Origin: a virus
Strand: one strand, 5' to 3'
DNA length: 20,600 nt
Virus record (IMG/VR): IMGVR_UViG_3300025127_000366
Location: 1-20,600 of that record
Shown: positions 3,149 to 16,773 of the stretch, piece after piece
Numbering within the stretch: position 1 is the stretch's first letter
Layout: each line of letters opens with the position of its first letter
Notes under the pieces: generated by a model
Seen by the model: only the letters and a program-made list of their open reading frames with translations
Database searches by the model: none
What the model was told of the DNA's origin: nothing
Made by a program: the position numbers and the translations under genes

Positions 3149-3491
3149 TTTCCTGTGATCTGTCTATTTGTGCATAACTTATAGCACCTTGTATTGCATT
3201 ACTTCCTGTAGCTGCCTGCACTGTAATTGCATCTCCTGCTTCTAGGTTTAAAGTTTGTGGTGAAGCATTAACTTGTGATTTGGCTGCAACATCGTCTCTA
3301 AAAAATTCATATTCTGTATTAGAATCAGAAGAGTCTACAAGATTCATATTTACTAGAATGGCTGATGAAGCATCGTTGTTTGCACAGTAAATACTTTTAA
3401 CTATTATAGTTGCATTAGTAGGACATGTAAGTGCTGTAGTCTTACCAGTGCTAGCTTGTTTGAATCCTTGGTTTTTATATAAAATCGTCAT
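3141..3491 (-). CDS. Small beta-rich virion protein
   Basis: A 116-residue protein rich in Thr, Ser, Ala and Asn, with alternating beta-strand patterns. It starts MTILYKNQGFKQ and continues TALTCPTNATIIVKSIYCAN, then LEAGDAITVQAATG near the C-terminus. This pattern (short N-terminal handle, a CPxxxxxIVKSIYxAN strand, an LEAGDxxTxQA strand) is common in small phage proteins thought to be jelly-roll-like virion components. No enzyme motif is present. Its ATG overlaps the TGA of the upstream 54-residue gene (ATGA). A capsid- or tail-decoration role is inferred from composition and context. Confidence 0.75.
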   Translation of the reverse strand: MTILYKNQGFKQASTGKTTALTCPTNATIIVKSIYCANNDASSAILVNMNLVDSSDSNTEYEFFRDDVAAKSQVNASPQTLNLEAGDAITVQAATGSNAIQGAISYAQIDRSQENG

Positions 3492-3652
3492 GATAAAAAA
3501 TAATTAAAAGCATCTTGTTCATTTTTTAAATCTTGTTGAAAAGCAAAATTTAGTTGTGATCTTAAAGTTTCCAAAGCTTCTAACACTTGTCTTTGGTTAG
3601 ATGGATCATAATTTTCTTTTGGTTCTGGTATTGTTATATTTATTTTTGCCAT
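3488..3652 (-). CDS. Small conserved phage protein, 54 residues
   Basis: ATG at 3652 to TGA at 3488 encodes 54 residues beginning MAKINITIPEPKENYDPSNQ. The second half is helical and acidic/amphipathic (QVLEALETLRSQL, then QQDLKNEQDAFNYFLS). I recall similar short proteins with a helix ending NEQEAFNFFL in marine phage tail regions; function unknown. The start overlaps the upstream stop as TAATG and its stop overlaps the next start as ATGA, which strongly supports it as a real gene. A small scaffolding or assembly role is possible but unproven. Confidence 0.78.
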   Translation of the reverse strand: MAKINITIPEPKENYDPSNQRQVLEALETLRSQLNFAFQQDLKNEQDAFNYFLS

Positions 3653-4191
3653 TAAAAAATTTTACCTTTTTGCCATTCCCAACAATAGGGTGAATGTCTT
3701 ATCCTATTATACATCTCAATATCTAAATGTAAATATTTCTCGAGTTCTTTTTTATCTTCGAACACGTATTTACTTGTACTTTTATTGAGAAAATTACTTT
3801 TATTAAAGTGTTGTTTAAGAAAAAGATTTAAATCTTTTAAATCCACATACCAATTTACGTTGGCATTTATCAAATAACACATTTGTGAACTTGTGTGATT
3901 TACATCTCCCCTGGCCATTGAACTTGGTTCATGATAAGAACAAAATGTTTTTTCAACATCTATTTCATCAATATCTAAACCATGTCTAGCTAAATCATAT
4001 CCTAAGCCATGTATATATCTTTCAACTGGTTCTCTAATAACAGTCCAACAAACTTTATTTAGATTTCTTTTATTTGTAATTTTAGGATTTAAATCTTCAA
4101 TTGTTTTTCTTACACTTGTACAAGCATTTTTATGAATGAGCAGATATTGAAATTTTTCTGTTTCGTAAAATTCTAAATTTTGGAAAAACAC
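3652..4191 (-). CDS. Sulfotransferase-like protein
   Basis: A 179-residue protein resembling cytosolic/Golgi-type PAPS-dependent sulfotransferases. Residues 17-31 (LLIHKNACTSVRKTI) match the 5'-phosphosulfate-binding loop usually written hPKxGxTSl. Residues 48-63 (CWTVIREPVERYIHGL) match the 3'-phosphate-binding RDPxxRfxS block, with R53, P55 and R58 present but His at position 61 where Ser is usual. It is shorter than most family members (about 250-300 residues). The start is GTG overlapping the upstream TAG (TAGTG); no ATG lies ahead of the first motif, so GTG is chosen. Acceptor unknown. Its position in a virion block with two glycosyltransferases suggests sulfation of a glycan, which is inference. 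Confidence 0.7.
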   Translation of the reverse strand: MFFQNLEFYETEKFQYLLIHKNACTSVRKTIEDLNPKITNKRNLNKVCWTVIREPVERYIHGLGYDLARHGLDIDEIDVEKTFCSYHEPSSMARGDVNHTSSQMCYLINANVNWYVDLKDLNLFLKQHFNKSNFLNKSTSKYVFEDKKELEKYLHLDIEMYNRIRHSPYCWEWQKGKIF

Positions 4192-4997
4192 TATTTGAAT
4201 CTTGCTGATCTTGGTGGACCTGATAGTTTACCAGCAGCACCCATCATTCTATCTCTTGCAGTTGTTGCTGCAGACGTGTCCTTCATACCCATGGTAGTAT
4301 TTGGTTGACCTCCACCACCAGTACTTTGTGGCTGTTCTGGAATGCTAGATATGTTGTCCATTTTACCAGTGTTATACGCAGTCATCGTTGCAATTTGTTG
4401 TGGTGAAGCGTTTGCTAATTTTATTTGTTGAAGTTTTGCATTATCAGCTACCATTCGATTTTGTAATTCAGTTCTTCTTTTTATCAAATTGGATGGGTCT
4501 TTTCCTTGTTTAAGTAATCTTGGAATACCTTTATTTGTAATTACATCAATTCTTTTTTGATATGATTTATCTAAACCAATGTTTATTGGATCACCAAATT
4601 TACCCCCAGTAATTTTATTTATAAAACCACCACTTATTGGATTATACCCTTGCATTAAATCACCTTGTTGAATTCTACCAATATCATCTAAACCGTACAA
4701 TCCTGCAAAATAATCTCTAGATTGTGTTACCACTGGATCTTCTTGTGGTATTAGCATTCTAGCTATTGCACCAGTGGCAGATCTTTCACCAAAAGGTAAG
4801 AAAGATGCTAAATCTCTTAAACCAAACGGTTTATTTTTTTCTGCTATTTTATTTTTTACTATGTCCTTACTATTGTTTAAAGGTGCTATGCCTGAAGCTT
4901 GTTGCATCATAAAATTTCTAAATGTAGGGTAATCACCATACTTTGCTTGTAGGTTTGGATTTGCTAAATATTCAGCTAAAAATTCATCTTGCATCAT
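4191..4997 (-). CDS. Uncharacterised phage protein, probably virion-associated
   Basis: A 268-residue protein with no enzyme motif I can name. Residues 1-30 (MMQDEFLAEYLANPNL, then YPTFRNFMM) form a helical start. Residues 60-90 (LRDLASFLPFGERSATG) and 93-135 (YGLDDIGRIQQGDLMQGYNPISGGF) resemble proteins I recall from uncultured marine phages. Residues 150-210 are basic and helical, probably a coiled coil (RRTELQNRMVADNAKLQQI). The tail is low-complexity and Gly-rich (QSTGGGGQPNTTMGM) and ends SGPPRSARFK. Its ATG overlaps the stop of the gp10-like gene (TAATG). That coupling suggests a tail or ejected protein; function unknown. Confidence 0.75.
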   Translation of the reverse strand: MMQDEFLAEYLANPNLQAKYGDYPTFRNFMMQQASGIAPLNNSKDIVKNKIAEKNKPFGLRDLASFLPFGERSATGAIARMLIPQEDPVVTQSRDYFAGLYGLDDIGRIQQGDLMQGYNPISGGFINKITGGKFGDPINIGLDKSYQKRIDVITNKGIPRLLKQGKDPSNLIKRRTELQNRMVADNAKLQQIKLANASPQQIATMTAYNTGKMDNISSIPEQPQSTGGGGQPNTTMGMKDTSAATTARDRMMGAAGKLSGPPRSARFK

Positions 4998-7165
4998 TAT
5001 CGCATTCCATCTGGTTGTGTATCAGCTCTAAAAGTACCATAACGCCAAGCTTGATTAGTTGATGTATTTTCTACTTTCAAACTTGCAAACCTTGCTCTAG
5101 CTCTTGTATCAACTTTTTGAGTTGAGTTGTTAATTGTAAAAGGTCCAAGTGGAGATGATGTTTCCGTATCCACAGGAAAATTTTTCAATAAAATAGATAC
5201 TTTAGCATCTCCTGTAAGAACTTTAAAGTCTGGCACAAACCTACGCATGCTCATAAAAAATTGACCATTACCTTCAATATCTAGATCAAAATCTCCAGAT
5301 TGAATAAATGATACAATAGCTGTTGATGTTCCTGTTGAAGATACTTCGTTGATGCCTTCTTCGTGAGAAAAATAAGTCGTAGCTCCATTGGTATTTGTTA
5401 CTCCAATTATTGTAGGAAAAGTTGGAGTTGCATTACTTATAAATTGTGTGGCATATGGATTATCAAATATAGTTGCATCCTCATAAGTTGTTCGTGGTAA
5501 AGTTCCTGTGGTCCATACTTTCTCATCATAATTATAAGATACAATTCGATCAATTTCTGTAGATCCATTTTTTGCATAAAACCAATTTATTTCTGAAAAC
5601 AAATTATTAATTCCTGCATATACTATTTCACCTGCAGTATAGTTTATACCTAGGTTGTCGCCTGTATCTAAAAATACAAAGTCTTCTACAAGACAAGGTA
5701 ATCCTTTTACAGTACCATCAAATACAAAAAAACCACCTGACTGTCCCATCCAATATACAGCACCATTAACAAAAGCCATAGAATGTTGTCCTATAGCACC
5801 ACAGTTAGAACCTACTTGTCTTATAGAAAAAGTAAAAGGTGGGCCTACAAACTGCATGATGTATGCAGCCGTATCCGTCAAAATTAAAATATAGTCTTTA
5901 CCTTTTGCAGCTCCAACAATTTTTGTACCTGAGTCAAGTCTAAAAGTTCCTGCTGTGTTAGTTGAAGTTGGCGTATAAGTGCTTTTGCTTTCTTGATCTG
6001 AAAATCTAATAAACATTTTATCTTGTGTATCAGTGTCACCTATTGTTGTTTCTGTGCCTAGCATAATAATATGCCTATCTCTCTCTGAAACTATTGACAT
6101 TACTGATGCTGTTGGAGCTCCTGTCACAATGACGGCTCTAGTAGAGAGTGCATTGGGATCAGCATGAATTGGATTCCAAGAAAATGTTTTACCATTTTTT
6201 ACTGTAGCAATTAATTGTTCACCAAAATTATCTAAAGACCATGAAGCAGGGTCTAGGACAACTGTAGAAGTCGTAGTCGCTTGTCCCCATCCAATAAAGT
6301 TAGATGCGTCTGTTACTGTCGCCAAGTTGCTGTGTGACGCTGCTGTAGTTCCTGAAGCTCCCCTTGATGCTATAACAATGTCATTACTGCTAATTGAGCT
6401 ATAAGTAATAAGCTCTGCTCCAATTAAGACGGTTCCTGAAGTAGGCAATCCAGTGGTCGATGTCAAAGTTATATTGGTTACAGAACCGTTGTTACCACCG
6501 GAAGCTGTTAGTGCTCCATTTAGAGTAGTGGTCAAAGCTCCTGAAACCGTACCTCCGTATTGTCCAGTTCCAAAACCAAAACCAAATGTTTGTGTTAACG
6601 GTCCAAATTGTGCATACGGATTAATGGTCGCTGCTCCGGTGGCCGTTGTTGTGCCTGATGCAGCAGAGGATACTTGTATTGTAAACGTGTTTGTTGTTGC
6701 TGATAATACTTCAAAAGGATTATCGGTAAAAAGTGTTGTAGCATATCCTGATCCAGTGGGAACAGTTACGCTTGTAAATGTAAATAAATCTCCAGCTACT
6801 AAACCGTGTGAGGTTTTATTTACAGTAATGGTTTGTGGAGCAGATGTAGAGGAAATAGTAAAAGTGGCACCTGTTATTGCTGTATCAAGTGGGGTGACAT
6901 CATAAAATGCACCACTATAATATACAAACAAAGCTTTGTGAGTTCCTATTGCAGCATAGGATCTACCGTCAAGATCTGACCATATATGTTGCTCTCTTGC
7001 AGCCCCTACTAGTGTATTAGAAGTTAATTGTCTCCATCCACCTATTTTTTCAGGTAATCCATATCTAAACCTAACATTATCCCCATCAGTCCATTGACCT
7101 TCGGCTCCTGTTTCTGTGACTTGTTTGTTAAATCCTGGTCTAATATTTACACTATTTAAAGGCAT
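4997..7165 (-). CDS. P22 gp10-like packaged-DNA stabilisation / tail protein with inserted beta domains
   Basis: A 722-residue protein. Residues 3-45 (NIRPGFNKQVTETGAEGQW, then DGDNVRFRYGLPEKIGGW) match the N-terminal signature of the phage stabilisation protein family represented by P22 gp10, a tail component that closes the portal after packaging. P22 gp10 is about 470 residues, so this one is much longer. Two insertions are visible: a beta-rich segment near 98-180 (ISSTSAPQTITVNKTSHGL) and a small domain near 228-286 (GTVLIGAELITYSSISSND). The second splits the GFGTGQYGG and GWGQ segments that adjoin in shorter relatives. No Shine-Dalgarno precedes the ATG; instead a perfect TATAAT sits 5 bases upstream. 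The next gene starts on its stop codon. Confidence 0.82.
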   Translation of the reverse strand: MPLNSVNIRPGFNKQVTETGAEGQWTDGDNVRFRYGLPEKIGGWRQLTSNTLVGAAREQHIWSDLDGRSYAAIGTHKALFVYYSGAFYDVTPLDTAITGATFTISSTSAPQTITVNKTSHGLVAGDLFTFTSVTVPTGSGYATTLFTDNPFEVLSATTNTFTIQVSSAASGTTTATGAATINPYAQFGPLTQTFGFGFGTGQYGGTVSGALTTTLNGALTASGGNNGSVTNITLTSTTGLPTSGTVLIGAELITYSSISSNDIVIASRGASGTTAASHSNLATVTDASNFIGWGQATTTSTVVLDPASWSLDNFGEQLIATVKNGKTFSWNPIHADPNALSTRAVIVTGAPTASVMSIVSERDRHIIMLGTETTIGDTDTQDKMFIRFSDQESKSTYTPTSTNTAGTFRLDSGTKIVGAAKGKDYILILTDTAAYIMQFVGPPFTFSIRQVGSNCGAIGQHSMAFVNGAVYWMGQSGGFFVFDGTVKGLPCLVEDFVFLDTGDNLGINYTAGEIVYAGINNLFSEINWFYAKNGSTEIDRIVSYNYDEKVWTTGTLPRTTYEDATIFDNPYATQFISNATPTFPTIIGVTNTNGATTYFSHEEGINEVSSTGTSTAIVSFIQSGDFDLDIEGNGQFFMSMRRFVPDFKVLTGDAKVSILLKNFPVDTETSSPLGPFTINNSTQKVDTRARARFASLKVENTSTNQAWRYGTFRADTQPDGMR

Positions 7166-7199: not shown

Positions 7200-7440
7200 G
7201 GCTTTCGGGTTTTTTTGGTTCTGTGCCCTCTGCATTTGTGTTATCTTTTGATATAATTTTTCTTACTTCTGGTTGAAAATGCTTTTGAAAAGATGCAACT
7301 ATTGCTACTAAATGATTGCCAAAATGTCTGAATGATTCTGGTGTAAAATGTATCCTTTTATGTCTTTTAATTATCTCAACTTCAGCATCTGAAAATTCAA
7401 TGTCTGCTGATCCGTCTTTTGGGCTTTGTTTAAATATCAT
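7195..7440 (-). CDS. Small hypothetical phage protein
   Basis: An 81-residue soluble protein starting MIFKQSPKDGSADIEFSDAE. The middle is helical and His-rich (IIKRHKRIHFTPESFRHFGN, then HLVAIVASFQKHF), and the C-terminus is charged and disordered. I do not recognise a family function. Its ATG overlaps the stop of the upstream oxygenase by four bases (ATGA), so it is translated with the oxygenase group, but it could belong with the tail genes downstream. The pattern D-A-E-V-E-I-I plus a helical core looks like a small binding or regulatory protein; that is a guess. Confidence 0.7.
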   Translation of the reverse strand: MIFKQSPKDGSADIEFSDAEVEIIKRHKRIHFTPESFRHFGNHLVAIVASFQKHFQPEVRKIISKDNTNAEGTEPKKPESL

Positions 7441-7988
7441 GGTTTGTTAACTCCTAAGGTTGGTCTTTGATCAAACTTTAAATGTTTGTTTGGTCCGTTT
7501 GCATCCACATAATGTATGAATATTTGATTACTATAATCTCCTTCAAAAGGTTCTCTCCAATGTTCTAACTCACATCCAAGATAAACACAAGCATCACCTG
7601 GCTCCATAACAACAGGAGCACCTTCCATATATATAGGCCATTTAGTTCCATCAGAACCAATTGCTATTGTAGCTGATATTTCACAAGAAGGTCTATCAGT
7701 GTGTTTTTTTAAATCTGCGTATTTAGAGTAAGTTCTAAAAAAACTATAAGTTGGTAAAAGTTTAAGATTACAAATCTCCTCCATTTTCTTTTGATATACT
7801 AACATTAAGGACTCAGCTAATACGTCTCCATATTTCATTGTATCGTAAACGTCTGATTGAATATTATCAAAATCAGTTTCATTATTTACGTGAGTCATTA
7901 ACATATATCTATCAATCAAATTTACTTCATCTTGAGATATAAAATTTTTTATTAATTTATATTTAAAATCTTTTAATGTGCCCAACAT
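7437..7988 (-). CDS. 2OG-Fe(II) dioxygenase-like protein
   Basis: The likely protein has 183 residues from ATG at 7988. The frame is open a further 26 codons upstream, but that part lies inside the preceding oxygenase gene, and AAGG/AAGGT sequences precede 7988. The C-terminal half has a double-stranded beta-helix pattern: LKKHTDRPSCEISATIAIG gives the Fe-binding H-x-D (H96, D98), and GCELEHWREPF gives the distal His (H143). MEPGDACVYLG is the strand before it. This is a phage 2-oxoglutarate/Fe(II) oxygenase type whose substrate is not known. It follows a prolyl-4-hydroxylase-like gene with a 16-base overlap, so the two probably act together or are co-expressed as late proteins. Hydroxylation of a virion protein is a hypothesis. 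Confidence 0.78.
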   Translation of the reverse strand: MLGTLKDFKYKLIKNFISQDEVNLIDRYMLMTHVNNETDFDNIQSDVYDTMKYGDVLAESLMLVYQKKMEEICNLKLLPTYSFFRTYSKYADLKKHTDRPSCEISATIAIGSDGTKWPIYMEGAPVVMEPGDACVYLGCELEHWREPFEGDYSNQIFIHYVDANGPNKHLKFDQRPTLGVNKP

Positions 7989-8542
7989 ACAACTGAATAC
8001 CTTGTTCCTTTTGTTACTGGTGTTACTCGATGAGGAAATAGAAAACCAGAGGGCCAAATCAAACAACTATTTTTTTTGGGTTTTATTGACATAGAATCAT
8101 TACTTTTTGGAAATGCAAACTCTATATTACCGCCTTCATAATCATCGTTTAAAAAAAATATACCACTTAATTGTCTATTGAGTGTAGAACATTGATCAAA
8201 ATGCCATTTGTAATGTCCACCTACTTCGTATTTTAATAATTGAATGTTTTCAATATTCATTATTGATCCAGTAGGGATGTCGTTTCTTTTCATCCAATCT
8301 AACATCAACTCTCTAAAAACTTTTGTTAACCAATTTGACCAATGAACTTCTGTCATTGATTTTGAAAATCTTACTAATTCTTTTGTAAAAACGTTTCGTA
8401 CTTCTTTATTAGTTATAGTTTTACCTGCGCTTACAACACATGCTTCTTGATATTCAAAATCATCACACACTTTTATTAATACGTCTACAGCTTGTTCTTT
8501 CATAACTTGTTCATAGGTGTGAATATAATTTTTTATTTCCAT
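7973..8542 (-). CDS. Prolyl 4-hydroxylase-like 2OG-Fe(II) dioxygenase
   Basis: A 189-residue protein from ATG at 8542. A TTG five codons upstream (8557) is also possible, but ATG is preferred. The C-terminal domain is a clear P4H-type double-stranded beta helix: YEVGGHYKWHFDQ gives H114 and D116, FLNDDYEGGNIEFAFP is the central strand pair, and SGFLFPHRVTPVTKGTRYSV gives the distal H171 and the 2-oxoglutarate-binding R181. All four expected ligands are present, so it is probably active. Such enzymes hydroxylate peptidyl proline or related residues using O2 and 2-oxoglutarate. The substrate here is unknown. It overlaps its upstream neighbour by 10 bases and its downstream neighbour by 16. Confidence 0.85.
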   Translation of the reverse strand: MEIKNYIHTYEQVMKEQAVDVLIKVCDDFEYQEACVVSAGKTITNKEVRNVFTKELVRFSKSMTEVHWSNWLTKVFRELMLDWMKRNDIPTGSIMNIENIQLLKYEVGGHYKWHFDQCSTLNRQLSGIFFLNDDYEGGNIEFAFPKSNDSMSIKPKKNSCLIWPSGFLFPHRVTPVTKGTRYSVVCWAH

Positions 8543-9279
8543 GACTTTTTTTTCCAAAAAATATTTTTATATTGATGTATAAACCATCTAGACAAAGATA
8601 AGACTGTTATATGTGGATCTTGTTTGGTGTATCCAATCTCCATTTGCCATTCATCCCTTTTAAATGGTATTACTTGAACATAAGGAGTTCCAGCTTTAAT
8701 TAATGTATTCAAAGATGGGTATTTATCTCCGTTTAAAACAATAGGAAAATTTACAGGTAATGTGTAGGTATCTGTATCTACAATACCTGATAAAGTAAAA
8801 AATCTATCGTCTGAATTATTTAAAGGTGTTGTGAATAAACAGGAATATCCAGGTGGTGTTTTTATAATCCACGGATTTAAAATTTTATAAAATGGTAGAT
8901 GTTTGTTTTCATGAGCGAAAGGACATTTATCACCAACTTGATTTATTGGATGAACATCACCATTATTGGTATTCAAATTCAAACCCATACTGTTTACCCA
9001 GTCTTTCAAAGCTTCATAAGAAAACTTACTAAAACTATCTCTTTCACCTGTTTTTTCGTTATGCATATTATGTTCGATTGAAATATCTTGTGGTGTGTAA
9101 AGACTGTATCCAGATGTCAAGCTATCTAGAAAAGGTATGCACCCTTTAATTGTTCTTTTTTCTTTAGTATGTTCTAATTCTTTAAACCACTGTGGAATAT
9201 TTACTTTTATGGGTTTAGGATGAAAGGCTTTTAGATCAACATATTCTGGTCGTGCAAGAAATTGGATCTTGATGGGCAT
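8533..9279 (-). CDS. Uncharacterised conserved phage protein (distantly DUF6065-like layout)
   Basis: A 248-residue protein beginning MPIKIQFLARPEY, with KPIKVNIPQWFKEL near residue 22 and TIKGCIPFLDSLTSGYSLY near 43. Residues 135-185 contain NPWIIKTPPGYSCLFTTPLN and LSGIVDTDTYTLPVNFPIVL, and AGTPYVQVIPFKRDEW follows near 200. The order NPWxIxTPPGY, then GxVDTDxY, then GTPxxQVIPFxR is one I recall from a marine phage and bacterial hypothetical family resembling DUF6065. Function unknown. It overlaps the P4H-like gene by 10 bases and so belongs to the oxygenase cluster. It may be a partner or substrate-binding protein for the oxygenases; this rests on gene order only. Confidence 0.75.
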   Translation of the reverse strand: MPIKIQFLARPEYVDLKAFHPKPIKVNIPQWFKELEHTKEKRTIKGCIPFLDSLTSGYSLYTPQDISIEHNMHNEKTGERDSFSKFSYEALKDWVNSMGLNLNTNNGDVHPINQVGDKCPFAHENKHLPFYKILNPWIIKTPPGYSCLFTTPLNNSDDRFFTLSGIVDTDTYTLPVNFPIVLNGDKYPSLNTLIKAGTPYVQVIPFKRDEWQMEIGYTKQDPHITVLSLSRWFIHQYKNIFWKKKSWK

Positions 9280-11052: not shown

Positions 11053-12738
11053 CTAAGCTGCTAAATCAACTGTAGTCCACGTGTTATTTACACCAAGATC
11101 GACCTCTTGCCATGAGGTTATATTAGGGCTGCCCACTGAGCTTGTCAAGGACATGCCAGTTAATGCAACATTTGCATTAGATTGTGTGCCTTCATCTCCT
11201 AATGATATAGATAAAGCTAAACCAGAAACACCTACTAATACCATAGGTATTTCTGTGATTGTTCCAAGACTTGACGTTAAAGCTTGTCCAGATACAGACT
11301 CGGTAGTGGTTTGTACTAAACTGTCATTTCCAAGAGATAAATTTAATGCAGTTCCTGTTACTGGAACATCTAAAAATAGACCAGCAATTGAATTTCCAAT
11401 AGAGGATGTTGCGGCTTGTCCAGTAACAGATTCATTCGTGCTTTGTACTAAAGATGGTGAGCCTATTGACGAAGTCATTGTGTGCTCTGACACAGTAATT
11501 GATAAATCTGCATCTGCAGTTACTGAGTAAACTCCAAAAGTCATTGTCAAAGCTTGACCAGTTACAGAGACACTTACGTCTCCTTTTACGGTTTGAGTTC
11601 CTATTGCTGATGTTAAAGCTTGTCCAGTAAGTGATACTGAATCTGCTTGACCCCAACTTTGATTACCCCAAGTATCTCTTCCCCAACCAGCACCAATTAA
11701 AAATTCAGGATCAATTGTTGTTTGCCCAGCAGACATAGAAGCTGAGCTTCCCGTAACTGGTACACCAATATTAATAACACTTGATTCAGAAAAAGTTTGT
11801 AACAGACCAGCAGTCGTCACTGACTCTGTGTGTGATGTACCTGAAATGTCATCACCTATTGATGATGTTAATGCCTGTCCCGATACTGAAATATCTGCGT
11901 TTGCAGTTACTGTTTCTGAACCGATAGCGGTTGTTAAAGATTGTCCAGTTACAGTTTCAAATGGTTGTAATTGACCCCACGCGTTTAAGTTCCACGCATC
12001 TCCACCCCAACCAACTTCAATAATTCCTTCAGCAGTTACTGAACCGATAGATGAGGTTAATAAACCAGCGGTTGTTAAGCCTACAATATCTCCAGTTCCA
12101 GCAATAACTGAATTTACAGATAGTGAAGCTGCTTGACCTGTTGTTGTAATCAAGAATGAAGCTCCGCCTACTGCAGTTCCCACAGATGATGCAAGTGCAA
12201 TCCCTGAAACAGATACGTTTGCGTTAGCGGCTAACGACTCATTTCCAGTAGCACTGGTTAATGACATTCCAGTAATACTTGTATTTAAATTTCCTTGTTC
12301 TCCCCATAATCCTTCGGACCAATCTAACGCGCCCCATGTTGTAGAGGTGATATCAAAAATACCACCCATGCCAATTCCATGAACATAACATAAATAATAA
12401 AAATCAGTTTGTGATGATGGAGTAACTTCTATATATCTCGTGGTCGCTGCATTGAAAGTTGTTGTGTTGGTGTAAGCAGCTTGATTACTGCTTCCATCAA
12501 GATAGTAAGTAACTCCAGATGATATTATACCTGAGGTGCTAGTGTTGGTTGAAAAAATTAATGGGTGATTATCATTACTTGCAGCACTTTGTTCAAATCT
12601 TAAAGTACCACCTTCAACCCAAGATACAGTTCCTGGGCCTGTAGCGTTTCTGGCACCATCCAAATAAAAGACGTTGCCTGTTCCTCCGCCATATAGATCT
12701 CCCGATGCTACGGTTACTGTATAAATACGTTCAGCCAT
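11053..12738 (-). CDS. Fibre-like repeat protein with N-terminal cupredoxin-like domain
   Basis: A 561-residue protein. The first 130 residues look like a cupredoxin-type beta sandwich: DNHPLIFST holds His58 and FYYLCYVHGIGMGG holds Cys117, His120 and Met124, the ligand set and order of a type-1 copper site. Many phage proteins carry a similar YxxCxxHxxMGG module whose role is unknown. Residues 155-536 are about sixteen copies of a VxGQALTSSIG-like unit, spaced roughly 18-25 residues apart, interrupted by Trp-rich linkers near 243-256 and 353-366 (GWGxDxWxxxxWGQ). This is a beta-rich fibre or shaft. There are no transmembrane segments or enzyme motifs elsewhere. It sits directly upstream of the tail fibre. 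Confidence 0.83.
   Translation of the reverse strand: MAERIYTVTVASGDLYGGGTGNVFYLDGARNATGPGTVSWVEGGTLRFEQSAASNDNHPLIFSTNTSTSGIISSGVTYYLDGSSNQAAYTNTTTFNAATTRYIEVTPSSQTDFYYLCYVHGIGMGGIFDITSTTWGALDWSEGLWGEQGNLNTSITGMSLTSATGNESLAANANVSVSGIALASSVGTAVGGASFLITTTGQAASLSVNSVIAGTGDIVGLTTAGLLTSSIGSVTAEGIIEVGWGGDAWNLNAWGQLQPFETVTGQSLTTAIGSETVTANADISVSGQALTSSIGDDISGTSHTESVTTAGLLQTFSESSVINIGVPVTGSSASMSAGQTTIDPEFLIGAGWGRDTWGNQSWGQADSVSLTGQALTSAIGTQTVKGDVSVSVTGQALTMTFGVYSVTADADLSITVSEHTMTSSIGSPSLVQSTNESVTGQAATSSIGNSIAGLFLDVPVTGTALNLSLGNDSLVQTTTESVSGQALTSSLGTITEIPMVLVGVSGLALSISLGDEGTQSNANVALTGMSLTSSVGSPNITSWQEVDLGVNNTWTTVDLAA
11131..12276 (-). repeat. Coding repeat array (VxGQALTSSIG units)
   Basis: This covers the region of the fibre-like gene that encodes about sixteen degenerate copies of an 11-residue core (V/L-T/S-G-Q-A-L-T-S-S-I/L-G) at a spacing of about 55-75 bases. 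On the plus strand the copies are seen as recurring gcttgtccagtaac/gatac-type blocks. Copies differ at the DNA level, which fits old duplication followed by drift. The best-preserved copies encode SGQALTSSIG and TGQALTSAIG. Confidence 0.75.
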
Positions 12739-13220: not shown

Positions 13221-13886
13221 TTAAACAGTTGTGTTTGGAGATGGAGACGGTATTTTAATTCTTGGAACACCATCATCATACTCCGCACGTCTTCTTCTGC
13301 CCATTTGTTGTAGGGCAAAATTTTGTATCTCTTCACTATACTTGGAATTATACAGGTTGTATAGATTATCCGGTCCTTTTAAAAAACTAAATGCCTCAGC
13401 CAATACACCATGTAACAACATGGACTCTTGATAAGTAGACAAAAAAGTATTGTTAGTTGAAGTGAAATTTGGTGGATCTTTAATATAATTAATTTGGACT
13501 GTACTCGCATTTGCAGGCGTGGGTGCAACTAAAATATTAAAATCATCGTAATTTGCAAAATATTTAGGAGTTCCTTGTGTTCCCGTACTATTGAATTCAG
13601 ATATAAAACTAATATCTCTTTTTTCTAAAAAAGTTCTTGTTCCACTTGATCCCACATGTTCTACAGATCTTAATATCAAAACATCTGAAGGCATAGATAC
13701 AGCTCTGTTACCAGCAGTAAATGTAGAAGTAGCATATTTTCTAAGATCATCATAATCAACCTTTCCTGCTACATCTAATTCAACAGATCTTATAAAATCT
13801 TGTATAATTGCATCAGTCAAAACTGTGCTACCTACTTCAGTATAGTTTCTTACTTGTGTCAAAAAATTAGAGTGAGTTATTGCCAT
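13221..13886 (-). CDS. Adaptor-like (head-tail connector) protein
   Basis: A 221-residue protein. The N-terminal 60 residues are helical (NFLTQVRNYTEVGS, then TDAIIQDFIRSVELDVAGKV), followed by RKYATSTFTAGNRAVSMPSD and a strand-rich core. A helical C-terminal part (YQESMLLHGVLAEAFSFLKG, then YSEEIQNFALQQ) ends in a basic tail. This helix/beta/helix design resembles the adaptor or connector proteins of tailed phages (SU10-adaptor or gp4-like). Such proteins sit under the portal and join head and tail. Its start overlaps the upstream stop (TAATG). Assignment by pattern only. Confidence 0.72.
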   Translation of the reverse strand: MAITHSNFLTQVRNYTEVGSTVLTDAIIQDFIRSVELDVAGKVDYDDLRKYATSTFTAGNRAVSMPSDVLILRSVEHVGSSGTRTFLEKRDISFISEFNSTGTQGTPKYFANYDDFNILVAPTPANASTVQINYIKDPPNFTSTNNTFLSTYQESMLLHGVLAEAFSFLKGPDNLYNLYNSKYSEEIQNFALQQMGRRRRAEYDDGVPRIKIPSPSPNTTV

Positions 13887-14332
13887 TATGTTATACTTAC
13901 CTCCACTTTACCTACCACGAGATCAGCTTGTCTTCTAATATTTTGTATTGATGGATCTTCAGGTATCATAGAATGCATTATGGTTGTTACACCATTTCTT
14001 ATTACTGGAAATTCTTGTGTTCTAAATGCAAACTGTCCAGGTAAACTTAAATTAGCCACACCAACTGAAGCTCCACCTGAATCAGATATAGTAGCATCTT
14101 TATCTGCTAAAAATTCTTGACTAGGTTGTTGAAATTTCATTACTCTTGGGTTTTGTAGTGCAATAGCATCTGCAGTGGTTCTTCTTCTACGTATCTGCGG
14201 GTGCTTTGGTTCAAACTCCGTATAGTGAACTAAAGATCCATTCCATTCTTTGACCATTTCTTCATATGGAAATTCCATACCTGATCTGTCAGATATTGCT
14301 TTTGATCTTTTTCCTGTTGCGTATGTTCCCAT
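13886..14332 (-). CDS. Conserved phage protein with DRSG/EWNG motifs
   Basis: A 148-residue protein. Residues 10-36 contain AISDRSGMEFPYEEMVKEWN and GSLVH, followed by EFEPKHPQIRRRR. This DRSG, FPYxEM, EWNG, EPKHPQ order is well conserved across marine phages and some cyanophages as far as I recall, without an assigned function. The middle is Gly/Ser-rich (DSGGASVGVANLSLPGQF), and the C-terminus ends ADLVVGKVEVSIT. It starts 2 bases after the upstream adaptor-like gene and overlaps the next start (TAATG). A small tail or connector component is likely from position between two adaptor-like genes. Confidence 0.75.
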   Translation of the reverse strand: MGTYATGKRSKAISDRSGMEFPYEEMVKEWNGSLVHYTEFEPKHPQIRRRRTTADAIALQNPRVMKFQQPSQEFLADKDATISDSGGASVGVANLSLPGQFAFRTQEFPVIRNGVTTIMHSMIPEDPSIQNIRRQADLVVGKVEVSIT

Positions 14333-16248: not shown

Positions 16249-16773
16249 TTAAAATCCTTTTATTATTTTTGAATTAAATACAATAGCATATTTTTTAGTG
16301 TGTGTTAAATTCCTATGTGTATAATGATCTAAATCTCCACTAAATATAACAAATTTACCTCTTGTTGTTTTTACTTCTTTTTTAATTTGAGGAAAATATA
16401 GTATTTGTTCTACATCGTTTAAATAAATTATAGCTGAAAATACACAAGGAGAATGATTATGTTGTTTTGTACTGCCTGCAAATCCTATTTCTATTCCCCA
16501 TACTTCATGTATTTTATATTTTGGTAATGCTACTTGTTGTTCAATTTCATTAAGAATATTTACTATGATTTCACCAATCTCTGGGTCATTCATAAAATAT
16601 TGCCAGTCTGTCATTCCACCATTTACATTTGTTATATCGTTTTTATTAGATGGATCTTTAATACCAGTTTGAATTTTTTCTATAAGAGATTTAGAATCTA
16701 AATCTATTTCGCCTTCCATGAAAAAATATTCTTTTTTAAATGTACCTTCAAAAAATCTATTTATTTTTTTCAT
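16249..16773 (-). CDS. 2OG-Fe(II) oxygenase-like protein with HxH motif
   Basis: A 174-residue protein with the double-stranded beta-helix pattern of 2-oxoglutarate/Fe(II) oxygenases, close to a phage group often annotated as putative 2OG-Fe(II) oxygenase. GFAGSTKQHNHSPCVFSAII (97-116) gives H105 and H107, where many relatives have HxD; LYFPQIKKEV is the middle strand. GKFVIFSGDLDHYTHRNLTH gives H150 and R154. The HxH could still bind iron. Substrate unknown. Position 16773 overlaps the upstream gene by 17 bases and has no clear Shine-Dalgarno; an ATG 18 codons later (16719) is a possible alternative. It sits directly before the endolysin, apart from the other two oxygenases. Confidence 0.72.
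   Translation of the reverse strand: MKKINRFFEGTFKKEYFFMEGEIDLDSKSLIEKIQTGIKDPSNKNDITNVNGGMTDWQYFMNDPEIGEIIVNILNEIEQQVALPKYKIHEVWGIEIGFAGSTKQHNHSPCVFSAIIYLNDVEQILYFPQIKKEVKTTRGKFVIFSGDLDHYTHRNLTHTKKYAIVFNSKIIKGF

Follow-up and report, generated by a model that had tools for sequence, protein, structure and literature searches.

A probable divergent cupredoxin domain with a putative type-1 copper site at the N-terminus of a marine phage fibre-like protein

The set His-Cys-His-Met in a cupredoxin fold is that of the type-1 copper site, among which the axial position is the most variable ligand. The closest described family, comprising plastocyanin, pseudoazurin and amicyanin (PF00127), consists of free electron carriers. 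The domain analysed here has the same His...Cys-x2-His-xn-Met order and strand positions, its ligands align with theirs, and a protein of phage Syn9 provides a sequence link, but it is devoid of any Pfam match, has an x3 loop between His and Met, and is embedded in virion proteins. The best structural match of both models described below was the N-terminal domain (residues 24-139; entries 2dv6, 6tfd and 6tfo) of the Hyphomicrobium denitrificans nitrite reductase, which we take to be part of an enzyme with catalytic copper domains. The identity with 2dv6 is only 14-16%, and the module is fused to fibre repeats instead. Marine phages are already known to encode a cupredoxin, the plastocyanin PetE of cyanophages, as described in PMC3037559. 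PetE is a protein by itself, metabolic and of host origin, whereas the present module is part of virion proteins. In PMC11705849, HxH iron sites are proposed in T4 gp37 and in the fibre of Alteromonas phage R22Y, together with a Trojan or Ferrojan Horse idea. Both cases deal with a proposed metal site in a marine phage tail fibre, but the HxH motifs would hold octahedral iron between the His pairs of fibre chains, with no Cys or Met ligand. To our knowledge, the metal centres of phage tails are mostly structural sites for iron or zinc. Among the open PMC papers listed by our searches, none dealt with phage tails that contain a cupredoxin or a copper site. In the same open literature, the only paper listed for cupredoxin together with cyanophage concerns Borgs; viral NirK is the subject of PMC8115048, and the word copper is absent from the passages of PMC2984593 that were covered.

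In the window (the whole 20,600-base stretch of a virus record that was analysed), the fibre-like protein corresponds to a 561 aa ORF on the minus strand, at positions 11053-12738, flanked by a PHROG 644 gene and a tail-fibre-like gene. The DNA common to the window and pelagiphages consisted of short patches. Of the 13 records with a match, 12 bear Pelagibacter phage names, and the best record covers 7% of the 12 kb that was searched. The cupredoxin-like N-terminal domain (residues 1-132; 12343-12738, minus strand) was delineated with AlphaFold2, PDB structure matches and hhalign comparison with 34 cupredoxins. As stated by an earlier sequence-only reading, it contains His58, Cys117, His120 and Met124, the last three within the motif CYVHGIGMGG encoded at 12365-12390. 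All four codons lie on the minus strand. His58 (12565-12567), a putative equatorial copper ligand, stands in the model directly before the strand 60-63 and was aligned to the cupredoxin ligand His. Cys117 (12388-12390), also a putative ligand, ends the strand 113-117 and is the only cysteine of the protein, as seen from sequence, model and hhalign. His120 (12379-12381), the second putative equatorial ligand according to sequence and hhalign, precedes the last strand, and Met124 (12367-12369), the putative axial ligand from sequence, model and hhalign, is among the first residues of that strand (121-132 by DSSP). His, Cys, His and Met are found in the order of type-1 sites, and Cys, the second His and Met sit where the chain turns into its last strand. 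Apart from the ligands, the protein has His residues at positions 303 and 419 only. Its repetitive fibre-like remainder (residues 133-561 and stop; 11053-12342, minus strand) shows VSGQALTSSIG-type repeats, spaced Trp clusters and no Cys, and the C-terminal part of the fibre was matched by 79 of the 82 module-bearing ORFs of window-type loci. Database matches of the window protein itself were poor. PHROG gave a weak tail-fibre match (phrog_30742, E 3.2e-4), Pfam gave no match to the domain, Copper-bind included, and the sole match of the domain to PDB sequences by phmmer was an immunoglobulin domain of NCAM (E 0.019).

The structure prediction that the sequence-only reading had asked for was run with AlphaFold2 on residues 1-136 with 64 family sequences. 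The model was all-beta (pLDDT 90.7, pTM 0.85), and its best PDB matches were cupredoxins. In Foldseek, the 13 PDB chains at E<=1e-3 were all copper proteins of the cupredoxin fold. They come from a small, redundant set of enzymes (bilirubin oxidase, laccases, nitrite reductases, multicopper oxidase and ascorbate oxidase), and their TM-scores are low (0.37-0.50). The top VIA-align match was the Hyphomicrobium nitrite reductase N-terminal domain (rmsd 3.0 over 106), with a Z of 8.3 that is borderline, at the edge of the values expected from unrelated sandwiches; among the 50 entries listed, 47 were cupredoxin-fold by title and three were SO1698 (Z 6.7-6.9). The model of a divergent member with a C-x2-H-x2-M loop, L088, was also all-beta (pLDDT 88.2). 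Foldseek found for it no PDB match at E<=1e-3, the best E being 6.6e-3, and the 50 chains listed were all cupredoxin-fold by title. VIA-align returned the same nitrite reductase domain with a Z of 10.2 (rmsd 2.4 over 103), all 50 entries listed being cupredoxin-fold by title. The two models are not independent, because the alignments behind them have many rows in common. Both predict the beta-sandwich characteristic of the cupredoxin superfamily, and the fold and topology suggest that the four ligand side chains would converge in space.

The sequence relationship was evaluated against 34 reference cupredoxins from bacterial genomes, which had been identified there by PF00127 or PF13473. For the family profiles A3, A4 and A5, rows were excluded if they lacked C..H..M, scored under 60 bits or were shorter than 95 aa, as were near-duplicates and L001 on the minus strand, which reduced 197 hits to 192 rows (163 of them viral) and 63 representatives; since rows lacking C..H..M were removed beforehand, the invariance of the ligands in these profiles is partly by construction. 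The hhalign probability was 90% with A3, 72% with A4 and 63% with A5. In all three alignments the four ligands were placed on those of the genuine cupredoxins, which supports the cupredoxin ligand order proposed from the sequence. Controls with A4 remained low, at most 1.4% in 200 column shuffles and 3.4% with the reversed profile, and five profiles of unrelated virion families from the same loci gave 1.7% or less. A sixth negative profile, built on the fibre C-terminal part, reached 62%, but the module motif was itself present in 24 of its 60 rows, which makes this value uninterpretable. The Cys-x2-His-x3-Met spacing had been described as within the cupredoxin range. It does fall between the loops read in the references after C-x2-H (x2 in 19, x4 in 6 and x5 in 3, a longer Cys-His spacing being present in 6), but the C-x2-H-x3-M loop of the window type itself occurred in 0 of 34; these counts took the first Met after His, so that pseudoazurins (CTPHYxMGM), whose ligand is presumably the later Met, were read as x2.

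Searches with single sequences and with profiles against databases were less discriminating. Copper-bind matched 2 of 32 family members with a best E of 0.037, and unrelated families matched single members equally well or better (DUF481, 0.033; SpaA_4, 0.034). In the member search, a fimbrial protein (0.018) ranked before plastocyanin (0.11). Against PDB sequences, the A4 profile found pseudoazurin first (E 0.07) and the A5 profile five plastocyanins (E 0.025-0.045) ahead of antibody chains, which start at 0.1; the first His remained uncovered in both cases. These PDB matches are not significant alone, and the link running through Syn9 and a bacterial domain, L195, is stronger. Among the fetched ORFs, the family HMM found the C-terminal domain of a Syn9 gp10-like protein (E 3.3e-12), the N-terminus of which is T4 gp9/10 above the Pfam cut-off. 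This C-terminal domain contains GGGHPFRI and YYQCTLHSLMNGTITVV. In a single comparison it was 40% identical to L195 over 95 columns (E 8e-14), and L195 scores 32.8 bits against Pfam Copper-bind, for a cut-off of 21.2. It is possible that L195 represents a bridge between cellular and virion cupredoxins, as far as these sequence comparisons indicate. The Syn9 domain alone had no Copper-bind match, a match to At5g54830 (E 0.0039) below the cut-off, and an unrelated best PDB match. The Copper-bind cut-off was not reached by the window protein, the 32 members or the Syn9 gp10-like domain, and only the bacterial relative L195 passed it. The L195 domain, with GHPF and YYYQCSLHNGMYG, is located at L195:1465-1752 in a marine Bacteroidetes genome from which another locus, L173, also comes. 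Altogether we consider it highly probable that residues 1-132 belong to the cupredoxin (plastocyanin/azurin) superfamily.

The conservation of the ligands was followed in several samples. Viral contigs were scanned with six search peptides, two of which included a ligand, and 418 stretches encoded relatives. The best 80 of these 418 (76-100% identity) were kept and yielded 56 distinct domain sequences, every one of which retains HPL and C-x2-H-G-x-x-M-GG. The family HMM run over the fetched loci gave 232 matches, 188 of them distinct, a count unfiltered for ligands in which one of the two locus-search peptides contained the first His. The four-residue set was present in 181 of the 188; one copy was truncated and six were degenerate, two of these six rows being one phage region fetched twice. 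As one search peptide held the first His, the 13 copies that could be caught only by the His-free peptide were checked separately, and the first His was present in 13/13, as was C..H..M. A second sample, also unfiltered for ligands, was drawn with the ligand-free peptide GTPGxxGAYT. Among the matches listed there were 122 distinct copies, 12 of them cut by a contig end or a stop, and 19 of the 122 matches lay on DNA common to the earlier locus set. All four ligands were present in 107 of the 110 evaluable copies among these listed matches, 102 being recognised by script and 5 by eye (L289, L325, L350, L360 and L375, in which the first His comes after a longer insert or an altered preceding residue).

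The degenerate copies were of several kinds. In L366 (minus strand, match at 5504) H, C and H are kept and the axial Met is replaced by Tyr (CGNHSGYGG), which makes it a natural axial-ligand variant; the axial Met was the only position seen lost alone, and in this one relative. L299 has lost H, C and H and kept Met, and L353 has kept the first His and lost the other three ligands. In repeat 1 of two flavobacterial proteins (L180 and L181), all four ligands are replaced and the remaining module is recognisable. The second copy in the Syn9 fibre has L, G, I and V at the four ligand places in an ungapped reading, that of P-HM2 gp7 has Lys for the first His and no CxxH motif, and that of ACG-2014h keeps the His, the remainder of the copy having failed to align. 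Since the loss is mostly joint in degenerate copies, the four residues seem mostly to behave as one unit. This bears on the possibility that the family is a metal-free descendant, with the cupredoxin fold serving simply as an Ig-like domain for decoration or adhesion, and the four residues conserved for the sake of folding. Degenerate copies do persist in recognisable modules, which indicates that the fold can exist without the site. They are rare, however (6/188 and, among the matches listed, 3/110), and several ligands mostly disappear at once, as expected for one functional set; moreover an unpaired cysteine with no role would be surprising in a protein exposed to seawater. We consider a metal-free descendant unlikely.

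The distribution of the module was investigated in 50,697 phage records. With tblastn, the window domain matched none at 1e-3 and 20 weak records at 10, and being too weak a query it was replaced by distant members, one of which matched 47 records and another 264. By the first word of their names, the 264 records were Synechococcus (203), Cyanophage (27), Prochlorococcus (21), Pelagibacter (4), Methylophilales (4), Marine (3), phage (1) and uncultured (1). The sequence-only reading was correct in noting that a similar YxxCxxHxxMGG module is present in many phages. There was no match in 72,556 plasmid records. The pattern F-x-Q around SNxxH followed by Y-x-C-x2-H-x2/3-M-G was found in proteins of S-B68, P-HM2 (gp7), 023Pt_psg01, Mosig, Bellamy and ACG-2014h, and the annotations among the matches listed included tail fibre, virion structural protein, baseplate wedge proteins and gp7. 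In the BFVD collection of predicted viral structures, 38 entries matched at E<=1e-3. Many of these rows are nameless; the named ones are mostly tail-fibre or structural proteins of marine cyanophages, and three Marseillevirus beta-sandwich proteins were also present.

The position of the module varies from one protein to another. It is N-terminal in 55 of 56 distinct stop-closed window-type proteins (<=622 aa), the exception having it from residue 180. The neighbouring virion-type gene of the window (13886-14332, minus strand; PHROG 28581) has no module there, but its homologues elsewhere carry one at their C-terminus: this gene was matched by 37 module-bearing ORFs (overlapping loci not merged), and in the eight ORFs printed the matching part comes first and the module lies C-terminally. 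L080 has modules on two adjoining virion genes, at 3434-4384 and 5521-5946 (the C-terminus of the neighbour and the fibre), and L030 and L033 have two modules per ORF. By comparison of these sequences, the module is mobile among the virion proteins of marine phages, namely fibres, T4-type gp7, gp10-like baseplate proteins and the neighbouring virion gene. It is not strictly viral, since in genome contigs (23 loci) it was also found in large secreted-looking proteins, such as that of L173 with its hydrophobic N-terminus on a 1.06 Mb contig. The flavobacterial ORFs of L180 and L181, at 2389 and 2329, encode large secreted-looking proteins, each with an intact module beside a copy whose four ligands are all replaced.

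A confident all-beta fold, aligned ligands, near-complete conservation, mostly concerted loss and the spread among virion genes, all obtained by computation, form the basis of the cupredoxin reading. We propose that residues 1-132 are probably a divergent cupredoxin with an intact His-Cys-His-Met set, serving marine phages as an exchangeable accessory virion module. Because the whole putative site is intact in fibre and baseplate domains, virus particles may carry copper, and we think it likely that copper is bound there in vivo. In this proposal, the domain would take up copper after lysis, from the lysate or from seawater, and hold it tightly. The main effect of the metal would be to lock the short beta-sandwich, giving a rigid and stable knob at the surface, and the next likely role of this knob would be to touch the surface of the host. 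A stabilising or structural function as the main role is plausible but tentative; the varied positions of the module (fibre N-terminus, C-terminus of the neighbour, gp7, gp10-like) fit stabilisation by a metal. Catalysis or long-range electron transfer is not expected because the protein showed no second metal domain. By Pfam, the window protein contains no redox domain elsewhere; the module is fused to fibre repeats, a setting other than that of an electron-transfer carrier.

The same fold and metal site could also be used as a bait or a trigger, copper-loaded fibres engaging some host surface protein that handles copper, or adsorption being triggered by copper or the redox state. This would be the copper equivalent of the iron Trojan or Ferrojan Horse idea, and the most interesting of the roles. 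The 264 matching records of the 50,697 searched, which are Synechococcus, Prochlorococcus, Pelagibacter and Methylophilales phages, cyanophages and unnamed marine or uncultured phages, would agree with it, as would the precedent of iron at HxH motifs proposed for marine phage fibres in PMC11705849. However, the module occupies many positions, in gp7, in gp10-like proteins and at the N-terminus of the window fibre, and not specifically the receptor-binding tip, so that we give this role a small probability. As to the nature of the metal, Zn, Ni or Fe in place of copper is quite improbable: metals are indistinguishable from sequence alone, and recombinant cupredoxins can take up Zn, but the ligand set in this fold is that of type-1 copper and the nearest relatives are copper proteins.

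A cysteine engaged in a disulphide, with an incidental His/Met pattern, is hardly credible: extra cysteines do exist in some distant members (only 45/72, 7/15 and 5/16 complete distant proteins are free of them), but 52 of 56 distinct complete window-type proteins have no other Cys, and Cys117, the sole one in 561 aa, is without a partner, which excludes an intrachain bond in the window protein and leaves only an interchain one. A chance resemblance to cupredoxins was ruled out by the profile alignment with its controls, the conservation of the ligands and the Syn9-L195 identity.

A widespread and evolutionarily kept type-1 copper site on marine phage virions would be new, and would connect the chemistry of copper with the particles of marine viruses. 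It would provide a function-bearing annotation for many virion proteins called hypothetical, structural or tail fibre, and poses the question whether copper influences how cultured cyanophages and pelagiphages adsorb or how stable they are. The broadest form of the proposal, which we advance as a doubtful one, is that the phages which infect the dominant bacteria of the ocean have cupredoxins loaded with copper on their tails and baseplates, copper being a regular virion constituent that matters for adsorption, triggering or survival. If this were true, marine phages would constitute a particulate, high-affinity pool of copper ligands.

Several other genes of the window were recognised. Near the virion genes, a clear 2OG-Fe(II) oxygenase (7973-8557; PF13640, E 2.9e-21) and a weak one (16249-16773; PF13759, E 1.5e-5, below the cut-off) were observed, and the frame 7437-8066, adjoining the first, had no Pfam match at 0.01. 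The product of 3652-4191 is presumably sulfotransferase-like by its N-terminal HKNACTS motif and likewise had no Pfam match at 0.01. The segment 15772-16248 encodes an M15-type peptidase (PF08291), perhaps an endolysin. Two glycosyltransferase-like genes are located at 1008-2820, with a group 1 transferase match above the cut-off (PF00534) and a weak Anp1 match.
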